Shown here: positions 5,977-39,800 of the stretch, one piece after another
Layout: every line of letters starts with the position of its first letter
Numbering within the stretch: position 1 is the first letter of the stretch
DNA from: Halichondria panicea
Taxonomy: Eukaryota > Porifera > Demospongiae > Suberitida > Halichondriidae
Direction: 5' to 3'
Assembly: GCF_963675165.1 (NCBI RefSeq)
Contig: NC_087385.1
Location: 4,946,412-5,010,411, forward strand
DNA: 64,000 nucleotides
The notes under the pieces: generated by a model
Database searches by the model: none
Seen by the model: the letters and a program-made list of their open reading frames with translations, nothing else
What the model was told of the DNA's origin: nothing
Translations under genes and position numbers: made by a program

Positions 5977-6651
5977 ATGACTGAAATGGAGACCAAGCTT
6001 CCCATGTATCAACAAGGTGTCTATCAAGAAGCCTCACCCACTGCCCCGGCCGGATCATATCAGCCATATCAGTCGAACGCTCAGCAGCTAGAGGTACAAC
6101 ACCATGACGAGAGAAACGATGATGACAACAATCCGCAGTCCAAGAATGACTCCGACATAATACTTCCAATAGACCCAGGAGATGTCCCACAACAAAAATA
6201 CCTCAGTGTAAGCCATAGCACTGCATGCGATTTCAGATACCTATACCATCTACTTATTACTCACTATACACCATGCACACACACGCAGCTTGAGTTTGAC
6301 GCGGCCTTCCACGAGCATAAGAAGACCAGTTTGGTGAAGCCAATGCATGATATCCTTGGAATTGTCTACAAATGGACGAAGCTCATCACTTATCACGTCT
6401 TTGTGATTATCATTGGGATTCCACTAATGATAGTCTGGGCTCTGGTAAATGGCATAACGGCATTCACCTACTCGTGGCTTTGGAGTCCTGCTATGCGTAT
6501 CACTATCTTCTGGATTGCAGCTACACTACCTCTGGTTACCATGCCACTGGTGACCATCTTTAGGCCTTTGACAGATGTGGCAGCTCGCTGCTTCAGTCAG
6601 ATCCGTGTAAAAGTAGCCCTCGATGGAAAAGGATTTGTTCAAAATGTCTAA
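5977..6651 (+). CDS. Caveolin-like protein, copy 1
   Basis: Two exons, 5977-6207 and 6289-6651, with an 81-bp GT-AG intron (phase 0) that happens to stay open; product 197 aa. Exon 1 gives a hydrophilic Asp/Asn-rich N-terminus ending DIILPIDPGDVPQQKYLS. Exon 2 starts LEFDAAFHEHKKTS, where human caveolin-1 has its FEDVIAEPEG signature, and continues with GIPLMIVW, a long hydrophobic hairpin and FRPLTDVAARCFSQIR. Against caveolin-1 as recalled, about 105 residues align without a gap: signature Phe and Glu, TK, GIP, Trp, the P132 equivalent, PL and FSxxR are shared. The cysteines equivalent to 133, 143 and 156 are absent. Expected to be a hairpin membrane-inserted oligomeric scaffold. Start chosen at MTEMETK; the second Met (5986) matches the start in copies 3, 7 and 8. 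Confidence 0.88.
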   Translation: MTEMETKLPMYQQGVYQEASPTAPAGSYQPYQSNAQQLEVQHHDERNDDDNNPQSKNDSDIILPIDPGDVPQQKYLSVSHSTACDFRYLYHLLITHYTPCTHTQLEFDAAFHEHKKTSLVKPMHDILGIVYKWTKLITYHVFVIIIGIPLMIVWALVNGITAFTYSWLWSPAMRITIFWIAATLPLVTMPLVTIFRPLTDVAARCFSQIRVKVALDGKGFVQNV

Positions 6652-7067
6652 CGAGGAATTTCACTGCCGTAATATATAATCAATGGTACTGTACACTTAG
6701 CTTAGAATTTTATGTGATTGCCACAATCCCTTCCTGTATCTAAATATGAGGAGCTATTTTGATCTGAATGCATGTGTATAGATCTATATAGCTCTCTGTA
6801 CTAATTATACCTATAGTATATAGAATTCCGAATTAATCCGTGTGCATGGTGGTGCAGCTGATAGACAACAAAATTCATTGTTAGTGCACAATTAATACAT
6901 GTGATGTCGATGAGCTTGATCCAGTAAATTCATTTATCCATCCAATCATGCATGTGATGAACTGCAATGGGTGTGGAATTTTAAAACTATGGTAAGCAAC
7001 AAAATTCATTGTTAGTGCACAATACATGTGATGAGCTCGATCCAGTAAATTCATTATCCATCCAATC
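6652..7067. repeat. Copy 1 3' flank with a ~130-bp direct duplication
   Basis: No gene. Sequence beginning CAACAAAATTCATTG at about 6866 recurs at about 6997, each copy continuing with TTAGTGCAC and a CCATCCAATC end. The second copy runs directly into the TIR element at 7068. Confidence 0.7.
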
Positions 7068-8198
7068 TAGCCTCGATCCCAGGCCGAGTTTTCGCTTTTA
7101 TAACGGTTACTCGATCCCAGGCCGAGTTTTCGCTTTTATAACGGTTAGGCGAACAACTGGGCCTGGTACTAGTTGTCTGCGCATGCGTCAGTCGTTCGTC
7201 AGATTCTGACGAATGGATATTCTCGTTCACTTTGGTGACATTTATATTTGTGTACTATCGTGTACTAGAAGTCAGTTCCCGTTTTATCATTATTGGAATC
7301 GATTGGAATGGCTCTTAGCTGAAGCTTCTCTCTTCTCTGAAGCTTATTCTGAAGACTGAACAACAAGGGAAGAGGTATAAAGCTTTGTCAAGCTTGTTAA
7401 GGTCAGATATTTTTGTGTGGGCCCTATGGCCGGCTAGGCTATGCTATCAAGTCTTGTTCATGTTTGGCAAGAATGTAGGTAGACTATAGTTTCATCATTA
7501 ATATGGTGGATCAAGTGAAGAGTGTGAGCTAGAGAACTTGGTGCTGCCATCATCAGCTCGTCGACAATGACACTATAACCGAGAAATTTAATATGTATAG
7601 ATCTACACGTATTTAAAATGTCTACTTCTCTGTACAGGAGCAATGGCTAATATCCAGCTATCCCAACAGTGCTCCTCTTGGCTATACTAACGGACGAGAC
7701 TGGACAGTTTGAGGTAAGGGTTTAACCGTCTTTGGTTTCTTTTAATATTGTCCTATACTCACAGACACAGGACTGGAGTATGACCTGCTCATTCGAGCGT
7801 TGCTGGGTAGCTCAGAGACATCAAGAGAATCTACGTTTTCTCAAGTAATGAGTTACGAGTTGGGGCCTAGAATCAGAGAAGTCCAGCAGCCTGCTAAATC
7901 TTTTTGAAACGTAATTTGAAGGCATTCAATCATCCTGAAGTTGCCCTGGGTCACTGTAATTGTGCTGCAGCACAACTGGCAACTCCCCAGGCCTTTGTGA
8001 AGCAGCTCCCTATGTGCATCTTTTGTGTACTCACTCTGTGCATTTTCTGTGTACAATTTTCTATTATTGATTTATTAAATATTTTTGCCGACCACAAATA
8101 TACAATGAAAATTTGACGCATGCGCAGACAACTAGTACCAGGCCCAGTTGTTCGCCTAACCGTTATAAAAGCGAAAACTCGGCCTGGGATCGAGGCTA
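7068..8198. mobile_element. Mutator-like non-autonomous TIR element (1.13 kb)
   Basis: Ends are TAGCCTCGATCCCAGGCC and its inverse; long terminal inverted repeats of about 80 bp extend to GCGCATGCGTCA. The first ~36 bp of the left end are tandemly duplicated (7073-7147). The interior matches the element at 15605-16692 in opposite orientation, including small open frames that have no known homologue and are probably chance. No transposase. No target duplication is visible at this copy, but 9-bp duplications flank relatives at 15605, 22303 and 29605. Confidence 0.8.
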
Positions 8199-8835: not shown

Positions 8836-11269
8836 ATGGCCACAGGCACAATTTTAGTGCGCAGGCGCGGTTACGGGGGTGACAACATTACTTTCGCATT
8901 CGCTGCAACTCAAGCAAGCTCTGAGAGACGCTTCTGCTATCTGAATTCAATTCAAAGTCAAATGATGGCTAAAGGCTCAACTCCTGCAATTCTAGGCACG
9001 CTCAACTCACTCTTCGCCATTCCACAAGTGCAGGAGCACCTCAACAGTTCTGGCTCAGTTAGTACTCCCAACAGTTTGGGACCAGCTACCAGCACTACCA
9101 GCAGTACTGCCGTCTCAACAGTTGCTGTTGCAGCTGGTACAGCTAACCCCACTCAACCTTCTCTCCCTTCCACCTTAGGAACGGCTGTTTCCTTGGAAGG
9201 TGAGAGAAATAAATTGTTTTGGTGTTTGTTTTTGGCAAGTGTCAAAAGTTGTGTGCGTACTATAAGTGTTGCTATATATGTGCTTGGCTGAGTGTTGCAA
9301 ATGGAGCTTCTTCTTTTGCACCATTCAGCTCAGTCACTAGCATGGGAGCAAAAAAGCAAGCCCAGCAGGGACAATCCAGCAAACACCACTGCAGGTGTAG
9401 GGTGTTGCAAAAAGAGCTTAGTATTGCACAGCTCAGCTCCAGCCACTAGCAAGTGAGCAAAAAGCAAAAAAACCCAGCATGGGAAAGTCAGCAAAAACAC
9501 CACTGCAGGTGCAGGGTGTTGCAAAAAGAGCTTAGTATTGCACAGCTCATGCAGTTTCAGTCACTAGCAAGTGAGCAAAAAAGCAAACCCAGCTTGGGAA
9601 ATTCAGCAAAAACACCACTGCAGGTGCAGGGTGTTGCAAAAAGAGCTTAGTATTGCACAGCTCAGCTCCAGCCACTAGCAAGTGAGCAAAAAGCAAAAAA
9701 ACCCAGCTTGGGAAATTCAGCAAAAACACCACTGCAGGTGCAGGGTGTTGCAAAAAGAGCTTAGTATTGCACAGCTCAGTTTCAGTCACTAGCAAGTGAG
9801 CAAAAAAAAGCAAACCCGGCTTGGGAAATTCAGCAAAAAACACCACTGCAGGTGCAGGGTGTTGCAAAAAGAGCTTAGTATTGCACAGCTCAGCTCCAGT
9901 CACTAGCAAGTGAGCAAAAAGCAAACACAGCTTGGGAAATTCAGCAAAAACACCATTGCAGGTGTAGGGTGTTGCAAAAGAGCTTAGTATTGCACAGCTC
10001 AGCTCCAGTCACTAGCAAGTGAGCCAAACAGAATGCATTATAATTATTACTGGGCAATTCAGCAAAACACCTCTACATGCAGAGGTGTAGGGTGTTACAA
10101 AAAGAGCTTAGTATTGCACACATGCAGCTCAGCAGTCATGCATGCACTATATATAGCAAGCGAGCAAATAGTATAGCAGTGAGTGTTTCTGGCATTTTCA
10201 GCAAAAAGGCGATCAGAGTATTTGTATACTTCGGCAGTGCAAATAATATACAGCTATAGCTGCATAGGTGGAATCGCAAAATGCATGGAGGATATTGGCA
10301 CTGCAGTCCGCTTTATGTATTAATTCCATTGCAGGCACGATTGCGGGACTAGGGGTGCTACCCCCTTTGCACACAGTCGCATCATTGCTGCCATCCGGTG
10401 CCGGGACACAAGGCATGTGCATCCAACCATCAGTCCCACTCATATCTCAACCAGCTTCAGCAATACCCAATGCATCGACAATATGGCGAGCAGCTGAGGC
10501 TCAGAGTAACTATCTACCCCAACAGTCTATCAGTCACGAGGGATTGGTAGCAAGTTTATACCTCGGTGATGGGGTTGTGCCCGTACCTGAAAAGCTAATG
10601 AAAAAAATATGGTCTTTGGAATACATCGAAATGAACCAGCTACTACCCGAGGCTTGGGTGCAAGATAGCTATTCAGAATCATCGTCACATTGTTGCCACA
10701 ATGCAAGTGCGAGCAAGCCTAAGAAGGGAGTTTCTTCTATATTCTCGTGGATACAGTGCTACAGCACTCTGGTGAGCATACTCGCTCACAAATTCCCGTC
10801 TAAGGTGCCTCAATTGATGGCCTACCAATCCATCATTGTAAGATGCTACACGGATTACGAAGGAGACGGTTGGTTGGCATATGACAGAGCATATCGGCGG
10901 AAAGCGGCATACGAAAAGTGCCTGGACTGGTCGAAGTTAAATGTTGCATTTTATCAATTCTGCCTCGCAGGCAATGCAAAGAGGAACGCGGTTTGCAGAA
11001 TTTGTTTGAGACACGACCACCAGACAGCCGACTGCAATGAAGCAGATAAAAACTACCTGAGGTCAGGGTATCCCACACCCGATGTGGGATTCAGCAGACC
11101 GGTAAATTCAGGGGTGGAGATTTGCAGGCTCTACAATGCAATCGGCGAATCCAAGTGTAAGTATAAAGAATGCAGATTCGCGCATTTATGCAAATTCTGC
11201 AAAAAGCCACATCCAGCCCCAAAGTGCCAAGGATCGGGAAAGACTGCAAAACGTAGTAGGCCATTCTAG
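8836..11269 (+). CDS. DIRS-type gag-like protein, apparently two exons
   Basis: Exon 1 about 8836-9199 (start at 8836 or at the MM pair 8962/8965) encodes a Ser/Thr/Ala-rich segment. A GT donor at 9200 and an AG acceptor at 10333-10334 (GCAG) join it in phase to the open frame ending at 11269. The C-terminal part has a gag-like helical region with FSWIQCYSTLVSILAHKFP and DGWLAYDRAYRRK. It then has a CCHC zinc knuckle (CRICLRHDHQTADC, C-x2-C-x4-H-x4-C) and a second Cys/His cluster near the end (CRLYN to CKFCKK). The 1.1-kb intron holds a minisatellite. Exon joining is inferred from splice consensus and phase only. Confidence 0.7.
9290..10175. repeat. Minisatellite, about seven units of ~114 bp
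   Basis: The landmark GCAAAAAGAGCTTAGTATTG recurs at about 9407, 9521, 9636, 9750 and 9864, then with small changes at 9974 and 10097. Spacings are 114, 115, 114, 114, 110 and 123 bp. A degenerate first unit begins near 9300. It lies wholly in the predicted gag intron. Confidence 0.93.
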
Positions 11270-11628
11270 AGAGACAAACAAGCAAAAAACTGAGAACTCA
11301 ACGAACTATATTACTATATATACATATCTGAGTGTGCTTAGTCATTAATAATTATTATGCTATAATTATTATTACTCATCTCAGCTGTTTATGCTTATCA
11401 GATTGCTCATGGGCCGCTTGCTTTAAATGCGCATGTGGTGAACAGCATTTTGTATTATTATGTGCATGCAATGTCACATTTGCAGCATGCTTGCAGGAAG
11501 TCTGTATCCATCAAGGTGGCTCTAAATCAGTTGTTCAGTTCATTTATGTCTACCCTTGCGGTATGACCTTGAGAGCATTCAGTAGTGATACTGTTTGTTC
11601 TCACACTTCCTGACAATGGCTTTCTTAT

Positions 11629-14852: not shown

Positions 14853-15505
14853 TTATACATTTTGAACAAATCCTTTTCCATCGAGGGCTGCTTTCATACG
14901 GATTTGGCTGAGGCAGCGAGCTGCCACATCTATGAAAGGCCTGTAGATAGTCACAAGTGGCATGGTGATCAGGGGTATAATGGCTGCCATCCAGAAAATA
15001 TAGAGACGAAAAACAGGGCTCCAAATCCACGAGTAGAGGAATGCTGTGAAACCATTTAGCAGAGCATAAACTATCATTAGTGGAATACCAATCACAAAGA
15101 CAAAGGCGTGATAGGTGATGAGCTTTGTCCACTTGTAGACAATTTCGGTGATGTCATGCAACGGCTTTGCCAAACTAGTCTTCTTGTGCTCATGGAAGAC
15201 CGCATCAAACTCGAGCTGTGTGTATGTGTATTGAGATAGATGTAGTTGGGAATTTCAGCGTGTATATATGGTTATACAGGTGGTCCAAAGCTTACATTGA
15301 GATATTTTTGTTGTGGGACATCTCCTGGGTCTATTGGAAGTATTATGTCTGAGTCATTCTCGGACTGCTGATTGTTGTCATCATTATTTCCCTCGCCACG
15401 GTTTTCTAGCTGCTGAACATTTCCCAGATATGGGTGGTATCCAGGGGCAGTGGGTGAGGCCACTTGATGGACACCTTGTTGATATACAGGAGGCCTGGTC
15501 TCCAT
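14853..15505 (-). CDS. Caveolin-like protein, copy 2
   Basis: Exons 15296-15505 (70 codons) and 14853-15215 (120 codons plus stop), GT-AG intron of 80 bp, phase 0; 190 aa. Exon 1 begins METRPPVYQQGVHQ and lacks the ~7 extra residues of copy 1. Exon 2 differs from the copy 1/3/4 type in about 15 positions (e.g. IGIPLMIVYALLNGFTAFLYSWIWSP, Tyr replacing Trp after LMIV) but keeps the signature Phe and Glu, GIP, the P132 equivalent and RPFIDVAARCLSQIR. Closest to copy 6, defining a subtype. Frame open. Same strand as copies 3 and 4 upstream of it. Confidence 0.88.
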
Positions 15506-16692: not shown

Positions 16693-18074
16693 GTTCCTTG
16701 TGCATTAAATAGCCATACATAAACAATGAATGTTTTTATTGTCTTCCCACTACTTTCTCTTACTAATGCATGGCCGATGTATAACTTATTACTGCTCTGC
16801 ACATTACAGATGGAGTTCGATCTGATACGTACCTCTACATTACTCTAAAATCTACCATTAATCTTTTCACCTCACTTGACATACAGAGCTTGTTCAGTTA
16901 CTATGGAAACTGAACTATTTTGCCACTATTCGGTGGAACCAATTATGGCTATGTGTAATGGTAGCTACTATATATATACGAGTAGGGGAATGCCGTTATG
17001 CCATTGACATGTAAAAGCGGTCCTCCGATGGAAAAGGGAAGGATTTGTTCTAATGAGCCATATAGATAGAAGGCACGGTAAGGAGCTAGTAAGCAAGCCC
17101 TTAGTCTCGAATTCCACGGTTCTCTTGTAAGCGTGGGAGGGAGAGAACCTTCTCTCCCTCCCACGCTTACAAGAGAAATTCGAGCAAGCCGGCCCTGTGG
17201 TTTGGCTACAGGTACAAGGTGTTTATTAATTTTTACATACAGCACATGCAGGCGGTATATTGTAGGTATATTGTATGGTCTTGCAACTCGCTGAACTTTT
17301 TAACATTAACCGGCTCTAGATCTAGTATTTTCTGATTGTGTGCATGTCTGGAAAAGGTAGAAGGATATACCAGCACGGAATGGCTGTACCCATAACCTAG
17401 CTGACTTCATTCAGAGAGAAAGTGAATGTACAGAGGATGTCTACCATGATGTACAGCCGGCCAATGCATGATTGTTTTGTGACATCATAAAATTATGCAT
17501 TTAAATGGGCGTGTTCCTGACATTTTTCGGCGCGCAATTAAGCGCGCACTATTCCAGCCACTGGATCCACCTCTGTTGAGTACGTGCTACACTAACAAAC
17601 CTCCATAAAACGGAAACCATTGGGAATAGCCTTTTTTGTCCGTTTTAGAGAGTTGTTAGTTGGGAGGTTTCAATTACAATTTTAATACATGTATGAGTCG
17701 ATCCTATAAGTGTATCTTGGAGCTATATAGTAACGGAGTAGAAAGGTGGCCGTTCCTGAGAGGTTGCTTTACATTCAGTGTAGTCTAGTTTCAATCCGGA
17801 CTTGAGCTGAGGTTGGTTGCTCTTCAGAGTTATAGACGTTATGGAGGTTCCACTGTAGCAATTGCATGCTAACTAGAAACTAGCAACTACGAGTTGAGTA
17901 GAAGTCAGGGCCATCGACTCAGTTGTAACTTCGAAAGAAAAGTAATGCAAAACTCATATAAAAGCTACATACTACAAAAAACTCATTATAATTGAGAGGA
18001 TCAGGAAGGGAATTGTGGCAATCACATAACAAGATGCGTGTACAGTATACCGTTAGTAACATTAAAAGTCCTCA
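16693..18074. repeat. Intergenic caveolin repeat block (copy 2 to copy 3)
   Basis: No intact gene. The block recurs at about 19260-21110, 27960-30860 and 32990-34625. It holds a scrambled relic of caveolin exon 2 (about 16976-17065), the 54-bp hairpin at 17122-17175, and a GCGCGCAATTAAGCGCGC inverted repeat near 17530. The last ~500 bp are a shared 3' flank ending at the caveolin stop. Confidence 0.8.
17122..17175. repeat. Perfect 26-bp inverted repeat (hairpin), block A
   Basis: Two 26-base arms, the left beginning CTCTTGTAAGCGTGGGAGG, separated by only CC. The same hairpin occurs at 19709-19762 and 33433-33486, and in mutated form at 28383-28439. Confidence 0.93.
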
Positions 18075-18753
18075 TTATACATTTTGAACAAATCCTTTTC
18101 CATCGAGGGCTGCTTTTACATAGATCTGACTGAGGCAGCGAGCTGCCACATCTGTCAAAGGCCTGAAGATGGTCACCAGTGGCATGGTAACCAGAGGTAG
18201 TGTAGCTGCAATCCAGAAGATAGTGATACGCATAGCAGGACTCCAAAGCCACGAGTAGGTGAATGCCGTTATGCCATTTACCAGAGCCCAGACTATCATT
18301 AGTGGAATCCCAATGATAATCACAAAGACGTGATAAGTGATGAGCTTCGTCCATTTGTAGACAATTCCGAGGATATTGTGCATTGGCTTCACCAAACTGG
18401 TCTTCTTGTGCTCGTGGAAGGCCGCATCAAACTCAAGCTGCATGTGTGTATCCATGCATGGTGAGTAGCTAATAACAAGAATAACATGCATGCACCATAA
18501 TATAGGTATCGGGGATTGCAGTGCTATGGCTTACACTGAGGTATTTTTGTTGTGGGACATCTCCTGGGTCAATTGGAAGTATTATGTCTGAGTCATTCTT
18601 GGACTGCTGATTGTTGTCATCATCATTTTTCTCGCCATGGTGTTGTACCTCTAGCTGCTCAATGTCTGCCTCATATGGCTGATATGATCCGGGGGCAGTG
18701 GGTAAGGTTTCTCGATGGACACCTTGTTGATATAGGGGAAGCTTGGTCTCCAT
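18075..18753 (-). CDS. Caveolin-like protein, copy 3
   Basis: Exons 18535-18753 (73 codons) and 18075-18437 (120 codons plus stop), phase 0 intron of 97 bp; 193 aa. N-terminus METKLPLYQQGVHRETLPTA; exon 2 is nearly identical to copies 1, 4, 7 and 8, with a few changes such as MHNILGIVYKWTK and SQIYVKAAL. The caveolin core features (signature Phe and Glu, GIP, P132 equivalent, RPLTDVAARC) are intact. Only ATG at 18753 is available; the ACTGAA codons before it match copy 1 codons 2-3, but the upstream ATG is lost. A possible TTATAAAAC box lies about 95 bp upstream. Best match is copy 7, whose 5' flank is also the same. Confidence 0.87.
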
Positions 18754-19080
18754 TTCAGTCAGATCTATTATAGGTGCTTGATGCTAGAAGAAATGGTGTT
18801 GATTGGCTACAAACTATGCAGCCTGCAGAATGACCAAAGTAGCATAGTTTTATAACCATTGCAGTTCATCACATGATTAATGAATTTACTGAAGCTCATC
18901 ACATGTGTATCATTATTGTACCAACAATGAATTTTATTTTACCTCAGAAGTAATATATACGTGGCCCTGAGTGCTATATACTCATATTCAAACATGTATA
19001 TAGTTTCTAGTTTGCATGCAGTTGCTTTATAGTATATAGAGTTGCATGGCAGTTGGCAGTTTGCAGTTGGTACTTCACAT

Positions 19081-19230
19081 TCCCCAGATATGGGTGGTAT
19101 ATCCAGGGTTAGGGTTAGGGTTAGGGGTTAGGGTTGGCAGTGGGTGAGGCCACTTGATGGACACCTTGTTGATATACAGGAGGCCTGGTCTCCATTTCGT
19201 GCTGCTTGATGCTAGTAGATGCAGCCCTAG
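19081..19230 (-). pseudogene. Caveolin exon 1 relic interrupted by telomere-type repeats
   Basis: Matches copy 2 exon 1 and its 5' flank (METRPPVYQQGVHQVASPTA region in reverse complement). Inside, at 19104-19135, there is GGGTTAGGGTTAGGGTTAGG and a little more, a short interstitial TTAGGG array. No donor or second exon follows, so it is a dead fragment. Confidence 0.85.
19104..19135. repeat. Interstitial telomere-type repeat (TTAGGG)n
   Basis: Four to five TTAGGG units, one with an extra G, inserted within the exon 1 relic. Shorter CCCTAA-type matches occur at about 50535-50550 in an AMPK gamma intron. Confidence 0.9.
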
Positions 19231-21112: not shown

Positions 21113-21764
21113 TTATACATTTTGAACAAATCCTTTTCCATCGAGGGCTGCTTTTACACGGATCTGACTGAGGCAGCGAGCTGCCACATCTGTCAAAGGC
21201 CTGAAGATGGTCACCAGTGGCATGGTAACCAGAGGTAGTGTAGCTGCAATCCAGAAGATAGTGATACGCATAGCAGGACTCCAAAGCCACGAATAGGTGA
21301 ATGCTGTTATGCCATTTACCAGAGCCCAGACTATCATTAATGGAATCCCAATGATAATCACAAAGACGTGATAAGTGATGAGCTTCGTCCATTTGTAGAC
21401 AATTCCGAGGATATCATGCATTGGCTTCACCAAACTGGTCTTCTTGTGCTCGTGGAAGGTCGCGTCAAACTCAAGCTGTGTGTGTATAAGAACAAGATAA
21501 AAACACCAAAATAATATAATTATAGGTATAGGTATGGCTTACACTGAGGTATTTTTGTTGTGGGACATCTCCTGGGTCTATTGGAAGTATTATGTCGGAG
21601 TCATTCTTGGACTGCGGATTGTTGTCATCATCGTTTCTCTCGTCATGGTGTTGTACCTCTAGCTGCTGAGCGTTTGGCTGGTATGATCCGGCCGGGGCAG
21701 TGGGTGAGGCTTCTTGATGGACATCTTGTTGATACATGGGAAGCTTGGTCTCCGTTTCAGTCAT
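21113..21764 (-). CDS. Caveolin-like protein, copy 4
   Basis: Exons 21543-21764 (74 codons) and 21113-21475 (120 codons plus stop), intron 67 bp, phase 0; 194 aa. N-terminus MTETETKLPMYQQDVHQE, ending DPGDVPQQKYLS; exon 2 has an open caveolin core with the same hallmark residues as copy 1. It starts at the first Met as copy 1 does. Exon 1 plus ~310 bp of 5' flank is an inverted copy of the copy 1 locus, so copies 1 and 4 are sister genes in opposite orientations. Confidence 0.88.
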
Positions 21765-23667: not shown

Positions 23668-24591
23668 TACCGTATTTACTTGATTAAACGCCCGGGTGTT
23701 TATTTCATATCGAAGTCTGTAGAGAGGGCGTTTAAACGAGACGGGCGTTTGTTCGAAACGGGCGTTTATTGTTAAGTCTACTCCAAACTCTTGCACAGCA
23801 ACAGTTATTATGCTCTTTTTGGCTGCTGCCACAGCTCTCAGCTTAAATTTAAGTCGTAGGAGTGATGTTCCTCCCTCTGTGTCGGTATCTCTCTCTCTGC
23901 CATCATAAATAGTATATATTATTCTATGCTACCATAGATTGAAGAGAGAGGGATAGGAAACGGAGTGGTGCACGTGATGATTTTACATTGAATCTGCAGT
24001 GGAGCCTCGAAAATTATCCGCGCTACGCCCTATGAACGAGGCTATTAAGCACACTTTTGCCGGGTAACTCCCAAAGCTGTGTTTCCTCGAGACATAATCT
24101 CTTTAGCAACTTAAAACACGCCTAGTCCATGAGCCATGTGTAGTACTTGCTAATGACTGACCACACCCAGTAAAAAGAGACTTTCCAATAAAGTTATATG
24201 TTCCCAAGGCTGTTTTAGAGCTATTGGAACATGTAACGTGTAAGCGTGCTGGTTATGACTACTACAATAGGTATAGACCTTGAAATATAAGTGAGTTGCA
24301 CGGACTAAGCACAGTTACTTGTAGTTTATTATGCACTGAGTGTAGAAATAGATATTGCTGTGATGGCCTCGATTAAACCGCACCGTAGCGCGGATGTTAC
24401 TCGAGATACAAACCGTTTCCTATCCCTCTAACTCTTCAATCTATGATGCTACCATGCTTGCAACTGGTTCCACGTGCTAATTCAGCTCCACCCACAGTGC
24501 CATGCCCCACACATGGGTAATTATTTAAGATGGGTGTTTATTGACAAAGACAGAGCTTTTACAGTGGGCGTTTAATCAAGTAAATACGGTA
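23668..24591. mobile_element. TACCGTA-ended element with a nested insertion, left arm
   Basis: TACCGTATTTACTTGATTAA at one end and its inverse at the other, with TA at the tips. Interrupted by the 513-bp element at 23933-24445. Right-arm counterpart is 39429-39832, uninterrupted. Confidence 0.85.
23933..24445. mobile_element. 513-bp TIR element, left arm only, 7-8 bp target duplication
   Basis: Ends CATAGATTGAAGAG and the inverse CTCTTCAATCTATG; inner inverted match GGGATAGGAAACGG. ATGCTAC flanks it at 23926-23932 and 24446-24452 (8 bp if one shared C is counted). The right arm has the single uninterrupted site. An 8-bp duplication would fit hAT; no transposase is present. Confidence 0.88.
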
Positions 24592-25397
24592 TGGTTCATA
24601 CTGTGCAGTTGTGTAGCTACTGTTGTAGTGTGGATTTGAAGTACATTTCTATATAATTATGTGATATTATCCTCCACTAGATTACAGAGATGTTGGGAGC
24701 CTCGCTGGAGTTGGGTGGTTTCCTAGCTGGTGTGGCCGTGAGCTCTCAGGGAGCCAGTGCTAACAGGGTACGGTTTCATAGCATAGCTCTCTTGTCACTA
24801 TAATAATACAGACATGCCGGTCATAGTCTACGCACATGTTTACTTTGGGTGTAATGTGATGCTGTCTGTGTTGTTTTTGTAGGTCAGAAAGTTGGTGAAG
24901 CCACTTAGAGACCTTTTTGCAGTGTTTTTTTTGCATCTCTAGGTCAGTGTAATTAATACATGCATTTCTGTGTTGTCTGTTTACCCTAAAAGCTGTTTTG
25001 TTGTTCTTGGTGTTGCTGTTGTATTGATTTAGGCATTATCACCTTCTGCTTACCATGGCTCGCTCTCTGCATTACTAATACTGAATTGACTTAAAATTTC
25101 GTTTTCTATAGGATTCCATGTATTCCCAACATTCTTGAGGTCGGAGTTTATCACTGTTTGTGCTGTCACACTGTTCATTATATTCCTCAAAGTAAGCCCC
25201 GAGGAGTTGTGAGATGTGGGCACACCCCACGCAATTAATTGGTGTGTCCACACAACTAAGTGGATGCTTAACCAATTAATGTGCTCAACCTGAATGTTTA
25301 AAAGACCCACACATATAAATGTATGTTTAACTACAGAAATTATAATGCCTTAATGCCCTCAAATACTTTCACCATGAGAACATTAATAGCCACTTAT

Positions 25398-25684
25398 CAG
25401 TGGCGTAGGCAGAGGGAGGCTGACGGGGCTAGAGCCCCCCCCCCCCTTTTTGTGCTCCATCAACTCCAACTTAGCTTGAATCACTGATCTGTCGATCTAT
25501 TTTGCATGCCTATAGTTACTAGAATGATGTCATTCAATATATATGTGGGCAGGGCCATCTAATACGCATGCTGACTGCTGAGGATAAGTGATGACCTTGG
25601 TAAAATTTCATGTTGTTCAGCGCCTGGTCTGGCTGCTCAACTGATTTGAGCCCTTCCCTTCCCAAAATCCTGGCTACGCCACTG
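25398..25684. mobile_element. CAGTGGCG-ended MITE in a TMCO3 intron, left arm
   Basis: 287 bp, ends CAGTGGCGTAGGC and inverted GGCTACGCCACTG, flanked by CTTAT/CTTAC (5 bp, one mismatch). Identical length and flanks at 38336-38622, so it predates the arm duplication. Similar architecture to 4817-5241. Confidence 0.8.
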
Positions 25685-26073
25685 CTTACCCTACACACAC
25701 GCACACACACACACACACAGTTCTCGCTGACGGTGGGGGTCCTGGGGCTGTTCCTCGGTCCCTGTCAGCCCAGTACGTGGACTCTCTCCCTCAGTCTGGC
25801 TCAGATGAGTGAATTCTCCTTCGTTCTGGCGAGCAGGGGGCGGAGACTCGGTATCGTATCCAGAGAGGTAAGTTACAGTGCCTTATAGTAGTACCTAACC
25901 ACATTGCACACACTAGCATTGCAACAGCATTCACATATGAAAGTATAATACCTATAAACAGTATACATGTATATATGGCTATAAAAAGGATTCTTTGCTA
26001 GCTTAATTCTAGTATACTACATGTATATACCTACCCTAATTGTTAGTTTTTTAATTGTCAGTTGGAGTAATTC

Positions 26074-26711
26074 TTAGACGTTCTGCACGGCATTCTGCAC
26101 AAATCCTTTTCCATCGACGCCTGCTTTGCAACGAATCTTGCTGAGGCAGCGAGCTGCCACATCTATCAAAGGCCTGAAGATGGTCACCAGTGGCATGGTA
26201 ATCAGGGGTAGTACAGCTGCAATCCAGAAGATAGTGATACGGAGAGTAGGGCTCCAAATCCACGAGTAGATGAATGCCATTATGCCATTTAGCAGAGCCC
26301 AGATTATCATTAGTGGAATACCAATCACAAAGACAAAGATATGATAGGTGATGATCTTTATCCACTTGTAGATTATTCCGAGAACTCCATGCACTGGCTT
26401 GATCAAACTAGTATTCTTGTGCTCGTGGAAGGTTGCAGCAAATTCAAGCTGCAAATAATGTGTTAGAAATGTAACGTGTCGCATCTACTTAATGCAAACT
26501 TACATTGAGGTATCGTTGGTGGTACATCTCTTGGTGACTTATGATCTACTACATCCAATTCTGACTCATCATCTCTGATACTGTTAGTGTCGTGGTGCTG
26601 GACCTCAGGCACCTCAGGCACTTCTGTCTCCTTTGTAGTCATGGGAATCGTAATCTCGTAGTTGTGAGGCTGGGGATCAGGGTAGACGGCAGACTCAGAT
26701 TCAGTAGTCAT
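26074..26711 (-). pseudogene. Caveolin-like copy 5, one-base frameshift in exon 1
   Basis: Mirror of copy 9 in the left arm, nested in the last intron of the TMCO3 duplicate on the opposite strand. Exon 1 is 26504-26711 (208 nt, not a multiple of three) and exon 2 is 26074-26448 (125 codons with stop). Compared with copy 9, exon 1 has one extra base near GATGTACCACCAACG and lacks one 9-bp GTGCCTGAG repeat unit. Splicing at the conserved donor would put exon 2 out of frame. Exon 2 itself is open and retains the caveolin core (FVIGIPLMIIWALLNGIMAF, FRPLIDVAARCLSKIR). A sequencing error is the alternative to true decay. Confidence 0.8.
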
Positions 26712-26762
26712 GGTTGATTTTGATAGGGTGCTATAGAGTGCTAGTTTATCTAGCTTACCTTG

Positions 26763-26771
26763 CTTTTATAG
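26763..26771 (-). promoter_or_regulatory. TATA-like box upstream of caveolin copy 5
   Basis: CTATAAAAG on the minus strand, 51 bp upstream of the ATG; conserved at the same distance before copy 9. Confidence 0.5.
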
Positions 26772-27230
26772 TCGTGGAGCTATCTTGTGTAGGAGGGCTC
26801 AGAGTTATGCTCTTGTTACCAATTATCATAGTCGCTGCTTGCATGTGTAATTACTGGCTATGGTTAGTTCCTCTGTTGGGGATGCACCGAAGCCTGTGGT
26901 GGGTAGACTCACTGCACTATATAACACTTTGACCATAATTATTCTAATAAAGTTTTCAATCACGGTTTAAATGCAGTACTATTCCCATGCAGGTGTACTT
27001 GGTAATACTGAGCACAGCGACTGTGAGTCTCCTCATGGCTCCCCTCCTGTGGCATCTCTTCCGATCCAGACTGAGGAGAGTAAGTCCTCTAATGCTGATA
27101 CGCTCTCTGTTCAGACTGCCTAGAGCTATACTCTCTAAAATCAGACATTCATCATCTAGATCTGTATAGCTTATGGTATTCATAATTATTGTTAAGACTG
27201 TCTCAAAGTATTACAGAAAAAGAGTCCCTA

Positions 27231-27885
27231 TTATACATTTTGAACAAATCCTTTTCCATCGAGGGCTGCTTTCATACGGATTTGGCTGAGGCAGCGAGCT
27301 GTCACATCTACGAAAGGCCTGTAGATAGTCACAAGTGGCATGGTGATCAGGGGTATAATGGCTGCCATCCAGAAAATATAGAGACGAAAAACAGGGCTCC
27401 AAATCCACGAGTAGAGGAATGCCATTATGCCATTTAGCAGAGCATAAACTATCATTAGTGGAATACCAATCACAAAGACAAAGGCGTGATAGGTGATGAG
27501 CTTCGTCCACTTGTAGACAATTTCGGTGATGTCATGCAACGGCTTTGCCAAACTTGTCTTCTTGTGCTCATGGAAGACCGCATCAAACTCAAGCTGTGTG
27601 TATGTGTATTGAGATAGATGTAGTTGGGAATTTCAGCGTGTATATATATGGTTATACAGGTGGTCCAAAGCTTACATTGAGATATTTTTGTTGTGGGACA
27701 TCTCCTGGGTCTATTGGAAGTATTATGTCTGAGTTATTCTCGGACTGCTGATTGTTGTCATCATTATTTCTCTCGCCACGGTTTTCTAGCTGCTGAACAT
27801 TTCCCAGATATGGGTGGTATCCAGGGGCAGTGGGTGAGGCCACTTGATGGACACCTTGTTGATATAAAGGAGGCCTGGTCTCCAT
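27231..27885 (-). CDS. Caveolin-like protein, copy 6
   Basis: Exons 27676-27885 (70 codons) and 27231-27593 (120 codons plus stop), intron 82 bp, phase 0; 190 aa. N-terminus METRPPLYQQGVHQVASPTA. Belongs to the copy 2 subtype (HDITEIVYKWTK, IGIPLMIVYALLNGIMAFLY, YRPFVDVTARCLSQIR), with Thr replacing Ala before the single Cys. Frame open. The 3' flank joins directly to the end of the left TMCO3 arm at 27178. Copies 6-7-8 repeat the order and orientation of 2-3-4. Confidence 0.88.
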
Positions 27886-28382: not shown

Positions 28383-28439
28383 CTCTTGTATAAAGCGTGG
28401 GAGGGAGAGAACCTTCTCTCCCTCTCACGCTTACAAGAG
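28383..28439. repeat. Degenerate copy of the block hairpin, block C
   Basis: Left arm has a TA-rich insertion (TTGTATAAAGCG) and the right arm a C-to-T change relative to the other three copies, so perfect pairing is lost. Confidence 0.85.
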
Positions 28440-29485: not shown

Positions 29486-29604
29486 TTTTCTACTGTTTTG
29501 ATGACATCACAAGCTGCTAACCACAAATCGATGACACTCAAATTAACCACGTAAGTGGGCGTACAATAACTGTACGCCCACTTTTAAGTACGTTTGTGGT
29601 TGAT

Positions 29605-29651
29605 TAGCCGCGATTCAAGGCCGTATTTTAATCGGCCTGGAATCGAGGCTA
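29605..29651. mobile_element. 47-bp TAGCC..GGCTA mini-element with 9-bp target duplication
   Basis: Begins TAGCCGCGATTC and ends GAATCGAGGCTA; GTGGTTGAT is repeated on both sides (29596-29604 and 29652-29660). Apparently the smallest member of the Mutator-like family. Confidence 0.85.
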
Positions 29652-30861: not shown

Positions 30862-31525
30862 TTATACATTTTGAACAAATCCTTTTCCATCGAGGGCTGC
30901 TTTTACACGGATCTGACTGAGGCAGCGAGCTGCCACATCTGTCAAAGGCCTGAAGATGGTCACCAGTGGCATGGTAACCAGAGGTAGTGTAGCTGCAATC
31001 CAGAAGATAGTGATACGCATAGCAGGACTCCAAAGCCACGAGTAGGTGAATGCCGTTATGCCATTTACCAGAGCCCAGACTATCATTAGTGGAATCCCAA
31101 TGATAATCACAAAGACGTGATAAGTGATGAGCTTCGTCCATTTGTAGACAATTCCGAGGATATCATGCATTGGCTTCACCAAACTGGTCTTCTTATGCTC
31201 GTGGAAGGCCGCGTCAAACTCAAGCTGCGTGTGTGTGCATGGTGTATAGTGAGTAATAAGTAGATGGTATAGGTATCTGAAATCGCATGCAGTGCTATGG
31301 CTTACACTGAGGTATTTTTTGTTGTGGGACATCTCCTGGGTCAATTGGAAGTATTATGTCTGAGTCGTTCTTGGACTGCTGATTGCTGTCATCATCATTT
31401 TTCTCGCCATGGTGTTGTACCTCTAGCTGCTCAATGTCCGCCTCATATGGCTGATATGATCCGGTGGCAGTGGGTAAGGTTTCTCGATGGACACCTTGTT
31501 GATATAGGGGAAGCTTGGTCTCCAT
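30862..31525 (-). pseudogene. Caveolin-like copy 7, one-base frameshift in exon 1
   Basis: Exon 1 31306-31525 (220 nt) and exon 2 30862-31224 (363 nt). Near the donor, the run that is five A in copies 1, 3 and 4 (CAACAAAAATACC) is six A here, so exon 1 is one base too long and reads QQKIPQCK. Normal splicing would put exon 2 out of frame. Exon 2 is fully open and keeps all core caveolin residues, so decay is very recent, or the extra base is a homopolymer sequencing error. N-terminus METKLPLYQQGVHRETLPTA, sister of copy 3. Confidence 0.8.
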
Positions 31526-31847
31526 TTCAGTCAGATCTATTATAGGTGCTTGATGCTAGAAGAAATGGTGTTGATTGGCTACAAACTATGCAGCCTGCAG
31601 AATGACCAAAGTAGCATAGTTTTATAACCATTGCAGTTCATCACATGATTAATGAATTTACTGAAGCTCATCACATGTGTATCATTATTGTACCAACAAT
31701 GAATTTTGTTTTACCTCAGAAGTAATATATACGTGGCCCCTGAGTGCTATATACTCATATTCAAACATGTATAGTTTCTAGTTTGCATGCAGTTGCTATA
31801 GTATATAGAGTTGCATGGCAGTTGGCAGTTTGCAGTTGGTACTTCAC

Positions 31848-32935
31848 ATTCCCCAGATATGGGTGGTATCCATGCAGGGGCAGTGGGTGAGGCCACTTGA
31901 TGGACACCTTGTTGATATCTCTTTCCTTGGCAATCTGTTGTAGAAATTACAACAACGGTAACGAATCGTTATGATGAATTAGATGAAGTTGTATGTGAGC
32001 TCCTCCCTGACAAACAAACTGTAGTCTAGGTAACGGCCTTATCAGTCAAGTAGGCTAAAAATCTGTGTCCTTTGATGTAAGCTTTGATGTCTCTTTGTGC
32101 ATAAAAAAAAAAAAAAAAAAAAAGAAACCTTTGACTAGCTAGGAAGAGTAGCAGCAGTAGTAGTAGGAAGAGTAGCAGTAGTAGTAGCAGTGCAAGCAGG
32201 ACTCACTGACTAGACTAGATTAAAAAGTTGGTGGAACGAATAACTGACCGTTTGGACGTCACCTGGCTGCCAGACTTTCATCTGGACTCTTCCCCCTGAG
32301 TAGCTGGCCTTTCTCTAAGCCACAAAACTGAGCAAGAAGCTGAAGAAGCAGCTAGACAGAGACATGTACCTAGCCTTGAGAATTGGGAGGCGTGGCTCAA
32401 CTAGTTAGCCCAGCCCAGAGGAATTGTTACCGTGGGTACTGAACAACCGTAGAAGTAGGGCTACCCCTGGCTTTACTGAATTAACTAGCTGTGTCTGCTG
32501 TCTAGTTGGACCAGATTTAGCTAGATAATGGGGTAGAGAATAGTTGAGCGGTGCTGTGTGTAGCTTGAACTGTACTGGCTGGCAAGAATCTAGTAAGCAC
32601 CCTATGCACTGATAACTCGTCAGAATGGAGGGTATGTTCTAGGGATCTGGACAGCTGTACATCCAAAGGAGCCAGGGAGTGCCAATCATCTTCTCCCAGT
32701 CTCTGACACGCTAAACAAAACGAGCTAGAACTGGGAGTCCCAGCTAGAATTGCTAGCCGGATCTAGACTAATAGAATGACATGGAGGCGTGGTGAGGCCG
32801 GATCCACACTAATTGATCGACCTAAAGACGCTCCTGTTCCAGACTTTCACGAATGGTAAGGAAAGGGTTATACAGGAGGCGGCCTGGTCTCCATTTCGTG
32901 CTTAATGCTTGATGCTAGTAGATGCAGCCCTAGTT
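31848..32935 (-). pseudogene. Caveolin exon 1 relic split by an insertion
   Basis: Same relic as at 19081-19230 (without the TTAGGG insert), broken at GTTGATAT by foreign DNA and resuming at TATACAGGAGG. Only exon 1 and 5' flank sequence is present. Confidence 0.85.
31919..32868. mobile_element. Unclassified 950-bp insertion with short TIRs
   Basis: Imperfect terminal inverted repeats CTCTTTCCTTGGCAATC and (inverse of the right end) CCCTTTCCTTACCATTC; TA or TAT duplicated at the target. Inside are a poly(A) run of about 22 (from 32102) and AGT/AGC-rich triplet repeats (about 32148-32200). No protein recognised. Confidence 0.7.
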
Positions 32936-33432
32936 CTAATTGTCATCACATGATTTGGTGGGCAATATGAATATCTAAATACATGTTCCTTGTGCATTTA
33001 ACATAAACAATGAATGTTTTTATTGTCTTCCCACTACTTTCTCTTACTATACAATTAATGAATGGCCGATGTATATAACTTATTACTGCTCTGCACATTA
33101 CAAGTGGAGTTCGATCTGATACGTACCTCTATACATTACTGTAGAATCTACCATGCTATAAATCTACCATTAATCTTTTCACCTCACTTGAAATACAGAG
33201 CTTGTTACTACGGAAACTAAACTATTTTGACCACTATTCGGTGGGACCAATTATGGCTATGTGTAATGGTAGCTACTATATATATATACGAGTAGGGGAA
33301 TGCCATTATGCTATTGACATGTAAAAGCGGTCCTCCGATGGAAAAGGGAAGGATTTGTTCTAATGAGCCATATAGATAGAAGGGTACGGTAAGGAGCTAG
33401 TAAGTAAGCCCTTAGTCTCGAATTCCACGGTT

Positions 33433-33486
33433 CTCTTGTAAGCGTGGGAGGGAGAGAACCTTCTCTCCCTCCCACGCTTACAAGAG
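33433..33486. repeat. Perfect 26-bp inverted repeat (hairpin), block D
   Basis: Same 26+2+26 hairpin as at 17122-17175, unchanged. Confidence 0.93.
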
Positions 33487-34629
33487 CAGGCCGGCCCTGT
33501 GGTTTGGCTACACATATACAAGGTGTAAAATAGATTATTAATCTTTACAGGCGGTATTATGGTATCACTATGATATTGCAACTCGCTGAACTTTTTAACA
33601 TTAACATCTAGATCTGATTGTGTGCATGTCTGGAAATGGTAGAAGGATATACCAGCACCGAATGGCTGTACCCATAACCTAGCTGACTTCATTCAGAGAG
33701 AAAGTGAATGTACAGAGGATGATTAATTGATTATTAATTTATACTTTCTACGGTAGTTCATGCTTGTAGTACAAGCCTCTACACCTCTTTTTTTTAGTGA
33801 CCCATAATACCATCGTTCCCCAAAATTTGCATTTAGTACATCGTTACAATTAAATTAAAATTTATTTAAGTGACATAATTGGAAAAAATAACCTGATTTT
33901 CATAATCCACCATATCTTAATTGTATTATGGCGTAAATTTTACTTTTTTCAACGATTATCTCCAGAGAAATTTATAATTAAGCTTAGGTGACTCATTATA
34001 CCAACATTTACCTTATGCATTTAAATGGGCGTGTTTTTCGGTGCGCAATTAAGCGTGCCCTATATATCCCAGCCACTGGATCCACCTCTGTTGAGTACGT
34101 GCTACACTAACAAACCTCCATAAAACGGAAACCATTGGGGAACAGCCTTTTTTGTCCGTTTTAGAGAGTTGTTAGTTGTTTTAGAGAGTTGTTAGTTGAG
34201 AGGTTTCGATTACAATTTTAATACATGTATGAGTCGATCCTATAAGTGTATCTTGGAGCTATATAGTAACGGAGTAGAAAGGTGGCCGTTCCTGAGAGGT
34301 TGCTTTACATTGTAGTCTAGTTTCAATCCGGACTTGAGCTGAGGTTGGTTGCTCTTCAGAGTTATAGACGTTATGGGTTGACCGTTCCACTGTAGCAATT
34401 GCATGCTAACTAGAAACTAGCAACTACGAGTCGAGTAGAAGTCAGGGCCATCGACTCAGTTGTAACTTCGAAAGAAATGTGAAATGAAAAGTAATGCAAA
34501 ACTCATATAAAAGCTACATACTACAAAAAACTCATTATAATTGAGAGGATACAGGAAGGGAATTGTGGCAATCACATAACAAGATGCGTGTACAGTGTAC
34601 TGTACCGTTAGTAACATTAAAAGTCCTCA

Positions 34630-35275
34630 TTATACATTTTGAACAAATCCTTTTCCATCGAGGGCTGCTTTTACACGGATCTGACTGAGGCAGCGAGCTG
34701 CCACATCTGTCAAAGGCCTGAAGATGGTCACCAGTGGCATGGTAACCAGAGGTAGTGTAGCTGCAATCCAGAAGATAGTGATACGCATAGCAGGACTCCA
34801 AAGCCACGAGTAGGTGAATGCCGTTATGCCATTTACCAGAGCCCAGACTATCATTAGTGGAATCCCAATGATAAACACAAAGACGTGATAAGTGATGAGC
34901 TTCGTCCATTTGTAGACAATTCCGAGGATATCATGCATTGGCTTCACCAAACTGGTCTTCTTGTGCTCATGGAAGGCCGCGTCAAACTCAAGCTGTGTGT
35001 GTATAATAACAAGATAAAAACACCAAAATAATATAATTATAGGTATAGGTATGGCTTACACTGAGGTATTTTTGTTGTGGGACATCTCCTGTGTCTATTG
35101 GAAGTATTATGTCTGAGTCATTCTTGGACTGCTGATTGTTATCATCATGTTTCTCGCCATGGTGTTGTACCTCTACCTGCTCAATGCCCGCCTCATGTGG
35201 CTGATATGATCCGGGGGCAGTGGGTAAGGTTTCTCGATGGACACCTTGTGGATATAGAGGAAGATTGGTCTCCAT
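34630..35275 (-). CDS. Caveolin-like protein, copy 8
   Basis: Exons 35060-35275 (72 codons) and 34630-34992 (120 codons plus stop), intron 67 bp, phase 0; 192 aa. N-terminus METNLPLYPQGVHRETLPTA. Exon 1 ends LPIDTGDVPQQKYLS, with Thr where other copies have Pro. Exon 2 has VFVFIIGIPLMIVW and otherwise matches copy 4. Frame open; caveolin core complete. The intron matches that of copy 4, whereas the 5' flank resembles copy 3/7, suggesting exchange among copies. Confidence 0.87.
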
Positions 35276-36547: not shown

Positions 36548-36842
36548 AGAACAAGCAAGCAGCTGCATGCGAGCTAGCTAAGTTTAATAGAACAGGGTAC
36601 GACTGAATAGTTGCACTAGCTATCTAAAACTAGCTACTCAAAGCTATCTAACTGCAGCACTCTAAGTCTTACTTGCCGTCAATGAATGATAACTCAATTT
36701 TTTAAGGTATTGTCCAGTTTAGAACAAATGTAATATTAAAGTACTGGAGTGTCCGTTGTATTAGAACAACGAAAATTGCCCAAAAGAGTGTCCGGGGTAA
36801 TTAGAAGTGTCCGATAAATTAGAAGATATACGGTACCATAAG

Positions 36843-39800
36843 CTATACAGATCTAGATGATGAATGTCTGATTTTAGAGAGTATAGTTCTAGGCAGTCTG
36901 AACAGAGAGCGTATCAGCATTAGAGGACTTACTCTCCTCAGTCTGGATCGGAAGAGATGCCACAGGAGGGGAGCCATGAGGAGACTCACAGTCGCTGTGC
37001 TCAGTATTACCAAGTACACCTGCATGGGAATAGTACTGCATTTAAACCGTGATTGAAAGCTTTATTAGAATAATTATGATCAAAGTGTTGTATAGTGCAG
37101 TGAGTCCACCCACCACAGGCTTCGGTGCATCCCCAACAGAGGAACTAACCATAGCCAGTAATTACACATGTAAGCAGCGACTATGATAATTGGTAACAAG
37201 AGCATAACTCTGAGCCCTCCTACACAAGATAGCTCCACGACTATAAAAGCAAGGTAAGCTAGATAAACTAGCACTCTATAGCACCCTATCAAAATCAACC
37301 ATGACTACTGAATCTGAGCCTGCCCTCTACCCTGATCCCCAGCCTCACAACTACGAGATTTCGATTCCCATGACTACAAAGGAGACAGAAGTGTCTGAGG
37401 TGCCTGAGGTGCCTGAGGTCCAGCACCACGACACTAACAGTATCAGAGATGATGAGTCAGAATTGGATGTAGTAGATCATAAGTCACCAGGAGATGTACC
37501 ATCACGATACCTCAATGTAAGTTTGCATTAAGTAGATGCGACACGTTACATTTCTAACACATTATTTGCAGCTTGAATTTACTGCAACCTTCCACGAGCA
37601 CAAGAAAACTAGTTTGATCAAGCCAGTGCATGCAGTTCTCGGAATAATCTACAAGTGGATAAAGATCATCACCTATCATATCTTTGTCTTTGTGATTGGT
37701 ATTCCACTAATGATAATCTGGGCTCTGCTAAATGGCATAATGGCATTCATCTACTCGTGGATTTGGAGCCCTACTCTCCGTATCACTATCTTCTGGATTG
37801 CAGCTATACTACCCCTGGTTACCATGCCACTGGTGACCATCTTCAGGCCTTTGATAGATGTGGCAGCTCGCTGCCTCAGCAAGATTCGTTGCAAAGCAGG
37901 CGTCGATGGAAAAGGATTTGTGCAGAATGCCGTGCAGAACGTCTAAGAATTACTCCAACTGACAATTAAAAAACTAACAATTAGGGTAGGTATATACATG
38001 TAGTATACTAGAATTAAGCTAGCAAAGAATCCTTTTTATAGCCATATATACATGTATACTGTTTATAGGTATTATACTTTCATATGTGAATGCTGTTGCA
38101 ATGCTAGTGTGTGCAATGTGGTTAGGTACTACTATAAGGCACTGTAACTTACCTCTCTGGATACGATACCGAGTCTCCGCCCCCTGCTCGCCAGAACGAA
38201 GGAGAATTCACTCATCTGAGCCAGACTGAGGGAGAGAGTCCACGTACTGGGCTGACAGGGACCGAGGAACAGCCCCAGGACCCCCACTGTCAGCGAGAAC
38301 TGTGTGTGTGTGTGTGTGCGTGTGTGTAGGGTAAGCAGTGGCGTAGCCAGGATTTTGGGAAGGGAAGGGCTCAAATCAGTTGAGCAGCCAGACCAGGCGC
38401 TGAACAACATGAAATTTTACCAAGGTCATCACTTATCCTCAGCAGTCAGCATGCGTATTAGATGGCCCTGCCCACATATATATTGAATGACATCATTCTA
38501 GTAACTATAGGCATGCAAAATAGATCGATAGATCAGTGATTCAAGCTAAATTGGAGTTGATGGAGCACAAAAAGGGGGGGGGGGGCTCTAGCCCCGTCAG
38601 CCTCCCTCTGCCTACGCCACTGATAAGTGGCTATTAATGTTCTCATGGTGAAAGTATTTGAGGGCATTTTAGGGCATTATAATTTCTGTAGTTAAACATA
38701 CATTTACATGTGTGGGTCTTGAATGGTACATGTATTTTAAACATTCAGGTTGAGCACATTAATTGGTTAAGCATCTACTTAGTTGCGTGGGGTGTGCCCA
38801 CATCTCACAACTCCTCGGGGCTTACTTTGAGGAATATAATGAACAGTGTGACAGCACAAACAGTGATGAACTCCGATCTCAAGAATGTTGGGAATACATG
38901 GAATCCTATAGAAAACGAAATTTTAAGTCAATTCAGTATTAGTAATGCAGAGAGCCATGGTAAGCAGAAGGTGATAATGCCTAAATCAATACAACGGCAA
39001 CACCAAGAACAACGAAACAGCTTTCAGGGTAAACAGACAACACAGAAATGCATGTATTAATTACACTGACCTAGAGATGCGAAAAAAAACACTGCAAAAA
39101 GGTCTCTAAGTGGCTTCACCAACTTTCTGACCTACAAAAACAACACAGACAGCATCACATTACACCCAAAGTAACTATGTGCGTAGACTACGACCGGTAT
39201 GTCTGTATTATTATAGTGACAAGAGAGCTATGCTATGAAACCTTACCCTGTCAGCACTGGCTCCCTGAGAGCTCACGGCCACACCAGCTAGGAAACCACC
39301 CAACTCCAGCGAGGCTCCCAACATCTCTGCAATCTAGTGGAGGGATAATATCACATAATTATATCATAAAGAAATGTACTTCAAATCCACACTACAACAG
39401 TAGCTACACAACTGCACAGTATGAACCATACCGTATTTACTTGATTAAACGCCCACTGTAAAAGCTCTGTCTTTGTCAATAAACACCTATCTTAAATAAT
39501 TACCCATGTGTGGGGCATGGCACTGTGGGTGGAGCTGAATTAGCACGTGGAACCAGTTGCAAGCATGGTAGCATAGAATAATAGATACTATTTATGATGG
39601 CAGAGAGAGAGATACCGACACAGAGGGAGAAACATCACTCCTACGACTTAAATTTAAGCTGAGAGCTGTGGCAGCAGCCAAAAAGAGCATAATAACTGTT
39701 GCTGTGCAAGAGTTTGGAGTAGACTTAACAATAAACGCCCGTTTCGAACAAACGCTCATCTCGTTTAAACGCCCCCTCTACAGACTTCGATATGAAATAA

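Follow-up and report, generated by a model that had tools for sequence, protein, structure and literature searches.

The window analysed here, a stretch of 64,000 nucleotides (nt) from the sponge Halichondria panicea (contig NC_087385.1, positions 4,946,412 to 5,010,411 of the forward strand), carries a cluster of nine two-exon genes for caveolins, proteins that give cell membranes their shape. The cluster spans positions 5977-37946 from the first to the last coding base. All gene models are predictions from genomic DNA. A first-pass annotation of the same DNA had described nine caveolin-like genes, seven open and two frameshifted, and our rebuild from splice signals reproduced both this count and the exact limits of the cluster. 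The genes (g1 to g9) belong to three subfamilies (A, B and C). In the following list, first exons and the g1 intron derive from the splice-signal rebuild unless stated otherwise, and second exons from the rebuild and from matches to Pfam Caveolin.

5977..6207, plus strand: g1 (A) exon 1, 77 codons
6208-6288, plus strand: g1 intron, 81 nt
6289..6651, plus strand: g1 exon 2, 120 codons and stop
14853..15215, minus strand: g2 (B) exon 2
15296..15505, minus strand: g2 exon 1
16978..17008, minus strand: exon 2-like scrap, 31 nt, in the copy 16693-17452 of a repeated unit
18075..18437, minus strand: g3 (A) exon 2
18535..18753, minus strand: g3 exon 1
19077..19195, minus strand: B-type exon 1 relic in two pieces (60 nt at 100% and 32 columns at 91% to g2)
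21113..21475, minus strand: g4 (A) exon 2
21543..21764, minus strand: g4 exon 1
26074..26448, minus strand: g5 (C) exon 2, open
26504..26711, minus strand: g5 exon 1, frameshifted near its 3' end, by comparison with g9
27231..27593, minus strand: g6 (B) exon 2
27676..27885, minus strand: g6 exon 1, from the second ATG
30862..31224, minus strand: g7 (A) exon 2, open
31306..31525, minus strand: g7 exon 1, frameshifted in an A-run near its 3' end
31846..31918, minus strand: B-type exon 1 relic (73 columns at 93% to g2)
34630..34992, minus strand: g8 (A) exon 2
35060..35275, minus strand: g8 exon 1
37301..37516, plus strand: g9 (C) exon 1
37572..37946, plus strand: g9 exon 2, 124 codons and stop
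19565-19595, 28247-28278 and 33288-33318: similar exon 2-like scraps, inside copies of the repeated unit of about 750 bp

Each of the nine genes contains a single intron of 55-97 nt, which starts with GTAAG and ends with CAG, and a second exon that is open throughout, with 120 codons in subfamilies A and B and 124 in C. The junction between the exons is in frame in seven genes (g1, g2, g3, g4, g6, g8 and g9), of which four belong to A, two to B and one to C, and their predicted proteins measure 190-197 residues when g6 is read from its second ATG. In these seven the intron is in phase 0 and lies directly before the hook of the caveolin core, and in g5 and g7 it lies at the equal place. The exon junction of CAV3 presumably falls at this same phase-0 place before the hook. 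Compared with sister copies, the frame of exon 1 is off by one base close to the 3' end in g5 (relative to g9) and in g7 (within an A-run), and a stop follows immediately after splicing; most simply, both genes are recent pseudogenes. The two exon 1 relics noticed earlier were confirmed on the minus strand (19195-19077 and 31918-31846), both of B type, and besides them we found four previously unlisted scraps of 31-32 nt that resemble exon 2 (expectation values, E, from 7e-8 to 1e-4).

The 81-nt intron of g1 is itself open and in frame, giving a read-through open reading frame at 5971-6651. Without splicing, the product of the g1 message would be a caveolin carrying 27 additional residues ahead of the hook.

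At the protein level, exon 1 encodes an acidic, proline-containing tail of 70-77 residues that is presumably flexible. In the seven intact genes it has 9-17 Asp/Glu and only 3-5 Lys/Arg, and the tails of A and B, unlike those of C, are rich in Gln/Asn. Exon 2 encodes the whole caveolin core of about 110 residues, followed by a conserved C-terminal tail. The core proteins are 74-80% identical between subfamilies and 96-99% identical within them.

The Pfam check of exon 2 proposed in the first-pass annotation was run as a six-frame search of the whole genome (131.5 Mb in 39 contigs). All nine second exons exceeded the Pfam Caveolin (PF01146) cut-off of 25, with 43-49 bits (E 4.5e-11 to 4e-9). 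Genome-wide, 11 candidates were scored; ten reached E<=0.001, and these ten, namely the nine second exons and one gene on another contig, were all above the cut-off, so the profile is not triggered by membrane proteins at large. Spliced proteins from one gene per subfamily scored 48.1 (A), 51.5 (B) and 50.3 bits (C). When a profile of the nine exon 2 copies was compared with 177,635 distinct PDB sequences, only three matches were obtained at E<=1 and all of them are caveolins: 9DN0 from S. purpuratus (1.6e-4), 7SC0, which is CAV1 (2.2e-4), and 9DN1 from S. rosetta (7.7e-4). A tblastn search in viral and prokaryote genome contigs found no relative, despite 151 and 109 pattern matches, as expected for an animal gene.

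In a seven-sequence alignment, the cores of g1, g2 and g9 are 17-23% identical to the three solved caveolins, and their alignment to CAV1 is gap-free for 110 residues, with 17-19% identity. Only two columns are identical in all seven sequences, the prolines opposite the CAV1 residues that we take to be P132 and P158; the choice of these prolines and of the hook Phe and Glu as a signature is likewise our assumption. The hook Phe and Glu are present in the cluster genes. The GIP motif is common to the cluster and CAV1 but the other two solved caveolins, which are from invertebrates, lack it, so it does not define the family. The likeness to the CAV1 core claimed in the first-pass annotation holds for the gap-free alignment, Phe/Glu, the P132 equivalent and GIP, but not for FSxxR, which occurs in g1 only, the other eight genes having LSxxR or LSxxY. 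Used alone in phmmer, g9 matches CAV1 at 4.3e-6.

The only caveolin match of the genome outside the cluster is a divergent tenth caveolin on contig C4 (L009 4400-5600), which scores 27.2 bits against Pfam Caveolin in the six-frame search and 27.4 bits when spliced. Its predicted phase-0 intron lies directly before the hook Phe, two codons further in than the intron of the cluster genes, and its protein has a lysine-rich C-terminus. The gene shares 16-23% identity with g1, g2 and g9 and 10-15% with the three solved caveolins.

Self-comparison of the window showed that a B-A-psiB-A block, in which psiB is a relic, is present twice, as g2-g3-relic-g4 and as g6-g7-relic-g8. The block partners are 95% identical over 816 columns (g2/g6), 92% over 1609 (g3/g7) and 92% over 1594 (g4/g8). 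A C gene follows each block, g5 after the first and g9 in the second half, and both C genes sit in an inverted duplication (96.8% over 2754 columns), of which an additional piece, 22904-23935 / 40597-39565, is 98.5% identical. An extra A gene, g1, stands at the left end in the opposite direction. The repeated unit of about 750 bp lies upstream of every B gene and every relic; at g2 a mobile element stands between the gene and the unit.

24446..27178, no strand: arm 1 of the inverted duplication, carrying g5, matching 39574-36834
36834..39574, no strand: arm 2 of the inverted duplication, carrying g9, from self-comparison
16693-17452, 19282-20010, 27988-28717 and 33001-33721: copies of the unit of about 750 bp, from self-comparison

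We then compared the five A genes segment by segment. Over the 300 nt upstream, g1/g4 are 98.9% and g3/g7 99.7% identical, the other eight pairs reaching 51-62%, and in exon 1 the group {g1,g4} is united at 14 gap-free sites and {g3,g7} at one. The introns pair differently: g1/g7 are 100% and g4/g8 98.5% identical, with the other eight pairs at 60-77%, and gap-free sites unite {g4,g8} 14 times, {g1,g7} eight times and {g1,g4} never. The diverged introns were aligned with gaps and their site counts depend on the alignment, while the pairs at 98-100% are unaffected. Counts that include gaps (26, 23 and 12 against 14, 14 and 8 without) give the same picture; in gap columns alone, 15 upstream sites unite g4/g8 and 21 downstream sites unite g3/g7. 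Exon 2 is 97-99% identical in all ten pairs. Downstream of the genes, g3, g4 and g8 are 98-99% alike, g7 is 91-93% identical to them, and g1 is 55-56% identical to all four.

Each of two types of exon 1 is therefore found with each of two types of intron, four combinations in all, which indicates that recombination or conversion joined different halves. Judging from the sequences, the border of exchange is near the exon 1/intron junction. Between subfamilies, A and B resemble each other in both exons (DNA identities of 80-86% and 82-85%). A and C share 84-86% in their second exons against 46-55% in their first, and exon 1 of g9 matches that of g1 and g2 no better than shuffled g9 does (6/40 and 8/40 shuffles reach the score).

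The ratio of non-synonymous to synonymous rates (dN/dS) of exon 2 is 0.26-0.48 in all 24 between-subfamily pairs. Seven of these pairs were tested and all showed a significant synonymous excess (Fisher p from 2e-6 to 0.005), bearing in mind that the tests use rounded counts and that the pairs are not independent. For exon 1, dN/dS is 0.41-1.03 over the ten pairs with a defined ratio, and p was below 0.05 in 3 of 11 pairs (lowest 0.037). By these substitution counts, exon 2 is constrained and exon 1 less so.

Altogether, we consider it highly probable that the array consists of true sponge caveolin genes, built in blocks and exchanging segments, whose cores would form discs. According to the structures described in PMC12330381, the exon 2 product would comprise the hook, the scaffolding helix and the spoke of a caveolin protomer. 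As in the solved caveolins, each core would insert in the cytosolic leaflet, and about 11 protomers lying side by side would make up an amphipathic disc whose cytoplasmic side bears the exon 1 tails. Given core identities of 74-99%, different copies probably mix within one disc, in which case the array would increase dosage and bring more variety to tails and promoters than to the disc. In the same paper, one Amphimedon paralogue is predicted to form a disc only as a hybrid with another (PMC12330381).

Several results weigh against this interpretation. By phmmer, g9 matches the two solved caveolins other than CAV1 more weakly (6.6e-4 and 0.055). The first-pass annotation had proposed a structure prediction of the disc; an AlphaFold2 monomer built from nine close paralogues (the second exons) was poor, with a predicted local distance difference test score (pLDDT) of 67, a predicted template modelling score (pTM) of 0.29, three helices and no strand, and with it Foldseek retrieved no PDB chain at E<=10. 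The caveolin protomer has helices arranged in a spiral and a strand at its C-terminal end. Foldseek also gave one viral match (E 2.7, probability 0.06); the model and its matches are used neither for nor against. The disc fold is accordingly a proposal by analogy with the solved caveolins. A search of the sponge's own genome for cavin (PF15237), a partner in the caveola coat, gave no match, although control genomes also gave none, so that absence is unproven. Finally, exon 2 of g5 and g9 differs by five non-synonymous and no synonymous changes. A release of g5 from constraint would lead one to expect this, but the changes are too few to decide, and the sequences do not demonstrate recent constraint in subfamily C.

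A pin motif before the hook, the mark of type II caveolins, was also considered and dropped, since phmmer aligns the exon 1 tail of g9 to the CAV1 pin but shuffled tails score equally well (2487/5000 for g9, 2000/5000 for g1 and 3621/5000 for g2). For the C4 tail, 253/5000 shuffles reach the score and the alignment does not end at the hook, and we do not take it as support.

We give almost even chances to the possibility that the copy number is mostly the product of neutral turnover, with one or two needed caveolins accompanied by a changing set of redundant or dying copies that unequal crossing-over and gene conversion keep alike. This explanation is compatible with the proteins being caveolins and implies nothing special on membrane biology. 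It would account for the two frameshifted genes of nine and the two exon 1 relics, for the 97-99% identity of second exons within subfamilies, for the mobile elements inside the cluster and for the lack of synonymous differences between g5 and g9 beside five non-synonymous ones. It accords less well with the constraint on the second exon between subfamilies, with the retention of at least one intact gene in each of the three, and with first exons that differ between C and A/B to the level of shuffled sequence. The specialised membrane-domain biology that the first-pass annotation derived from the expansion is not demonstrated, as most copies are near-identical duplicates whose second exons hardly differ, and ordinary array turnover fits equally well.

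We regard as unlikely a mix-and-match set in which one mixed disc carries many tails and broken copies make tail-less discs. Here the upstream region with the tail exon would form one module and the disc exon a second; recombination near the exon 1/intron border would reshuffle the modules, and conversion would keep the discs interchangeable. Both frameshifted genes, and none of the seven others, have a final exon 1 ATG (24-27 nt ahead of the donor) that shares the reading frame of exon 2.

Multiplicity could also be an assembly artefact of uncollapsed haplotypes, given that several pairs are 97-99% alike. We find this very improbable, because the copies differ in order and orientation and combine segments of each other as mosaics, introns are only 60-77% and upstream regions only 51-62% identical in 8 of 10 A-type pairs, and the near-identical C arms face opposite ways, an arrangement that simple duplication of haplotypes would not produce. 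That the genes encode unrelated helical membrane proteins resembling caveolins only by hydrophobic composition is hardly credible: identity to solved caveolins is just 17-23% and the poor model has no fold match, but ten of the 11 scored genome candidates have E<=0.001 and all ten lie above the curated cut-off, the PDB profile search returns caveolins exclusively at E<=1, and the CAV1 alignment is gap-free with the P132- and P158-aligned prolines kept.

Mobile elements are found inside the cluster of sponge caveolin genes. A 1.09 kb element with terminal inverted repeats of about 81 bp is present at 7110-8198 and at 16688-15605, and these two inverted copies bracket a stretch that holds a retroelement and g2. 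All 40 scored genomic copies (40 of 715 first-look candidates) are full length at 99-100% identity, and the element looks like a young non-autonomous DNA transposon. The retroelement, which we take to be DIRS/Ngaro-like, lies between g1 and g2 (10268-14287), with a reverse transcriptase frame at 11614-13275 and a second frame at 13193-14287 that contains phage-integrase N-terminal domains and a catalytic-domain match below the cut-off. A palindrome of about 1.5 kb at 28738-30218 has arms that are 88-96% complementary, and a (CA)n tract of about 600 bp is located at 1400-2000. The flanking frames (2360-2644 and 42500-63977) match EMP70/TM9SF, Na/H exchanger, MYND finger, CBS domain, TNF domain, RCC1 repeats and ankyrin repeats, all ordinary animal genes.

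Elsewhere in the genome, three silicatein-like genes in both orientations lie within 11 kb of contig C2 (about 656,900-667,900; L011-L013), a second family that this sponge keeps in a cluster. The pattern that we take to mark the silicatein active site gave three matches on this contig and its reversed control none; the frames read CGASYAF and then papain-family sequence, and two pieces of one tested copy match Peptidase_C1. As silicateins are sponge enzymes, these genes identify the host as a sponge, most likely a demosponge; a sponge had already been proposed from the sequence alone. On contig C1, a single short match to COX1 that contains two TGA is probably a nuclear copy.

Vertebrates have three caveolin genes, against nine in this array, and the first-pass annotation was fair in calling such an expansion unusual. 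Sponge caveolins as such are already known: a 2025 paper describes five A. queenslandica UniProt proteins with Caveolin annotations, which form their own clade under the name of atypical caveolins, and it lists two chromosome-scale sponge genomes that also contain caveolins or caveolin-like genes (PMC12330381). Like the genes described here, the Amphimedon proteins match Pfam Caveolin and occur as several paralogues in one sponge, and they are similarly divergent from human CAV1, with 11-19% identity in that paper (PMC12330381) and 17-19% over the core for the cluster. Against the five Amphimedon caveolins, compared by description only, we observed nine clustered copies and one distant paralogue. 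CAV3 likewise has two exons (PMC3132216).

Among the solved caveolins, that of the choanoflagellate S. rosetta (9DN1) has the highest identity in the seven-sequence alignment (21-23%), together with a similar hook start (EFDDSF versus EFDAAF) and a similar C-terminal end (LSNIQVRLGMEGK versus LSQIRVKAALDGK). It differs by a longer N-terminal part, the match beginning at residue 112 of 233, and by E-value g9 alone is nearer to CAV1. Human CAV1 (7SC0) shares with the cluster the 110-residue gap-free core, GIP and the P132- and P158-aligned prolines. No report of a sponge caveolin cluster appeared among the matches listed by an open-access-weighted literature search, which is weak evidence of absence. 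What is new is the size of the cluster, its anatomy, its block structure and the exchange between copies.

The finding is of use to specialists; it is unsurprising in kind and leaves the definition of a caveolin unchanged. For the role of caveolins in early animals, seven intact clustered genes with three tail types offer a natural test set for asking whether different copies mix in discs, how the tails function and whether cavins are required for caveola-like membranes. The cluster also shows that the caveolin family is not always small and stable.

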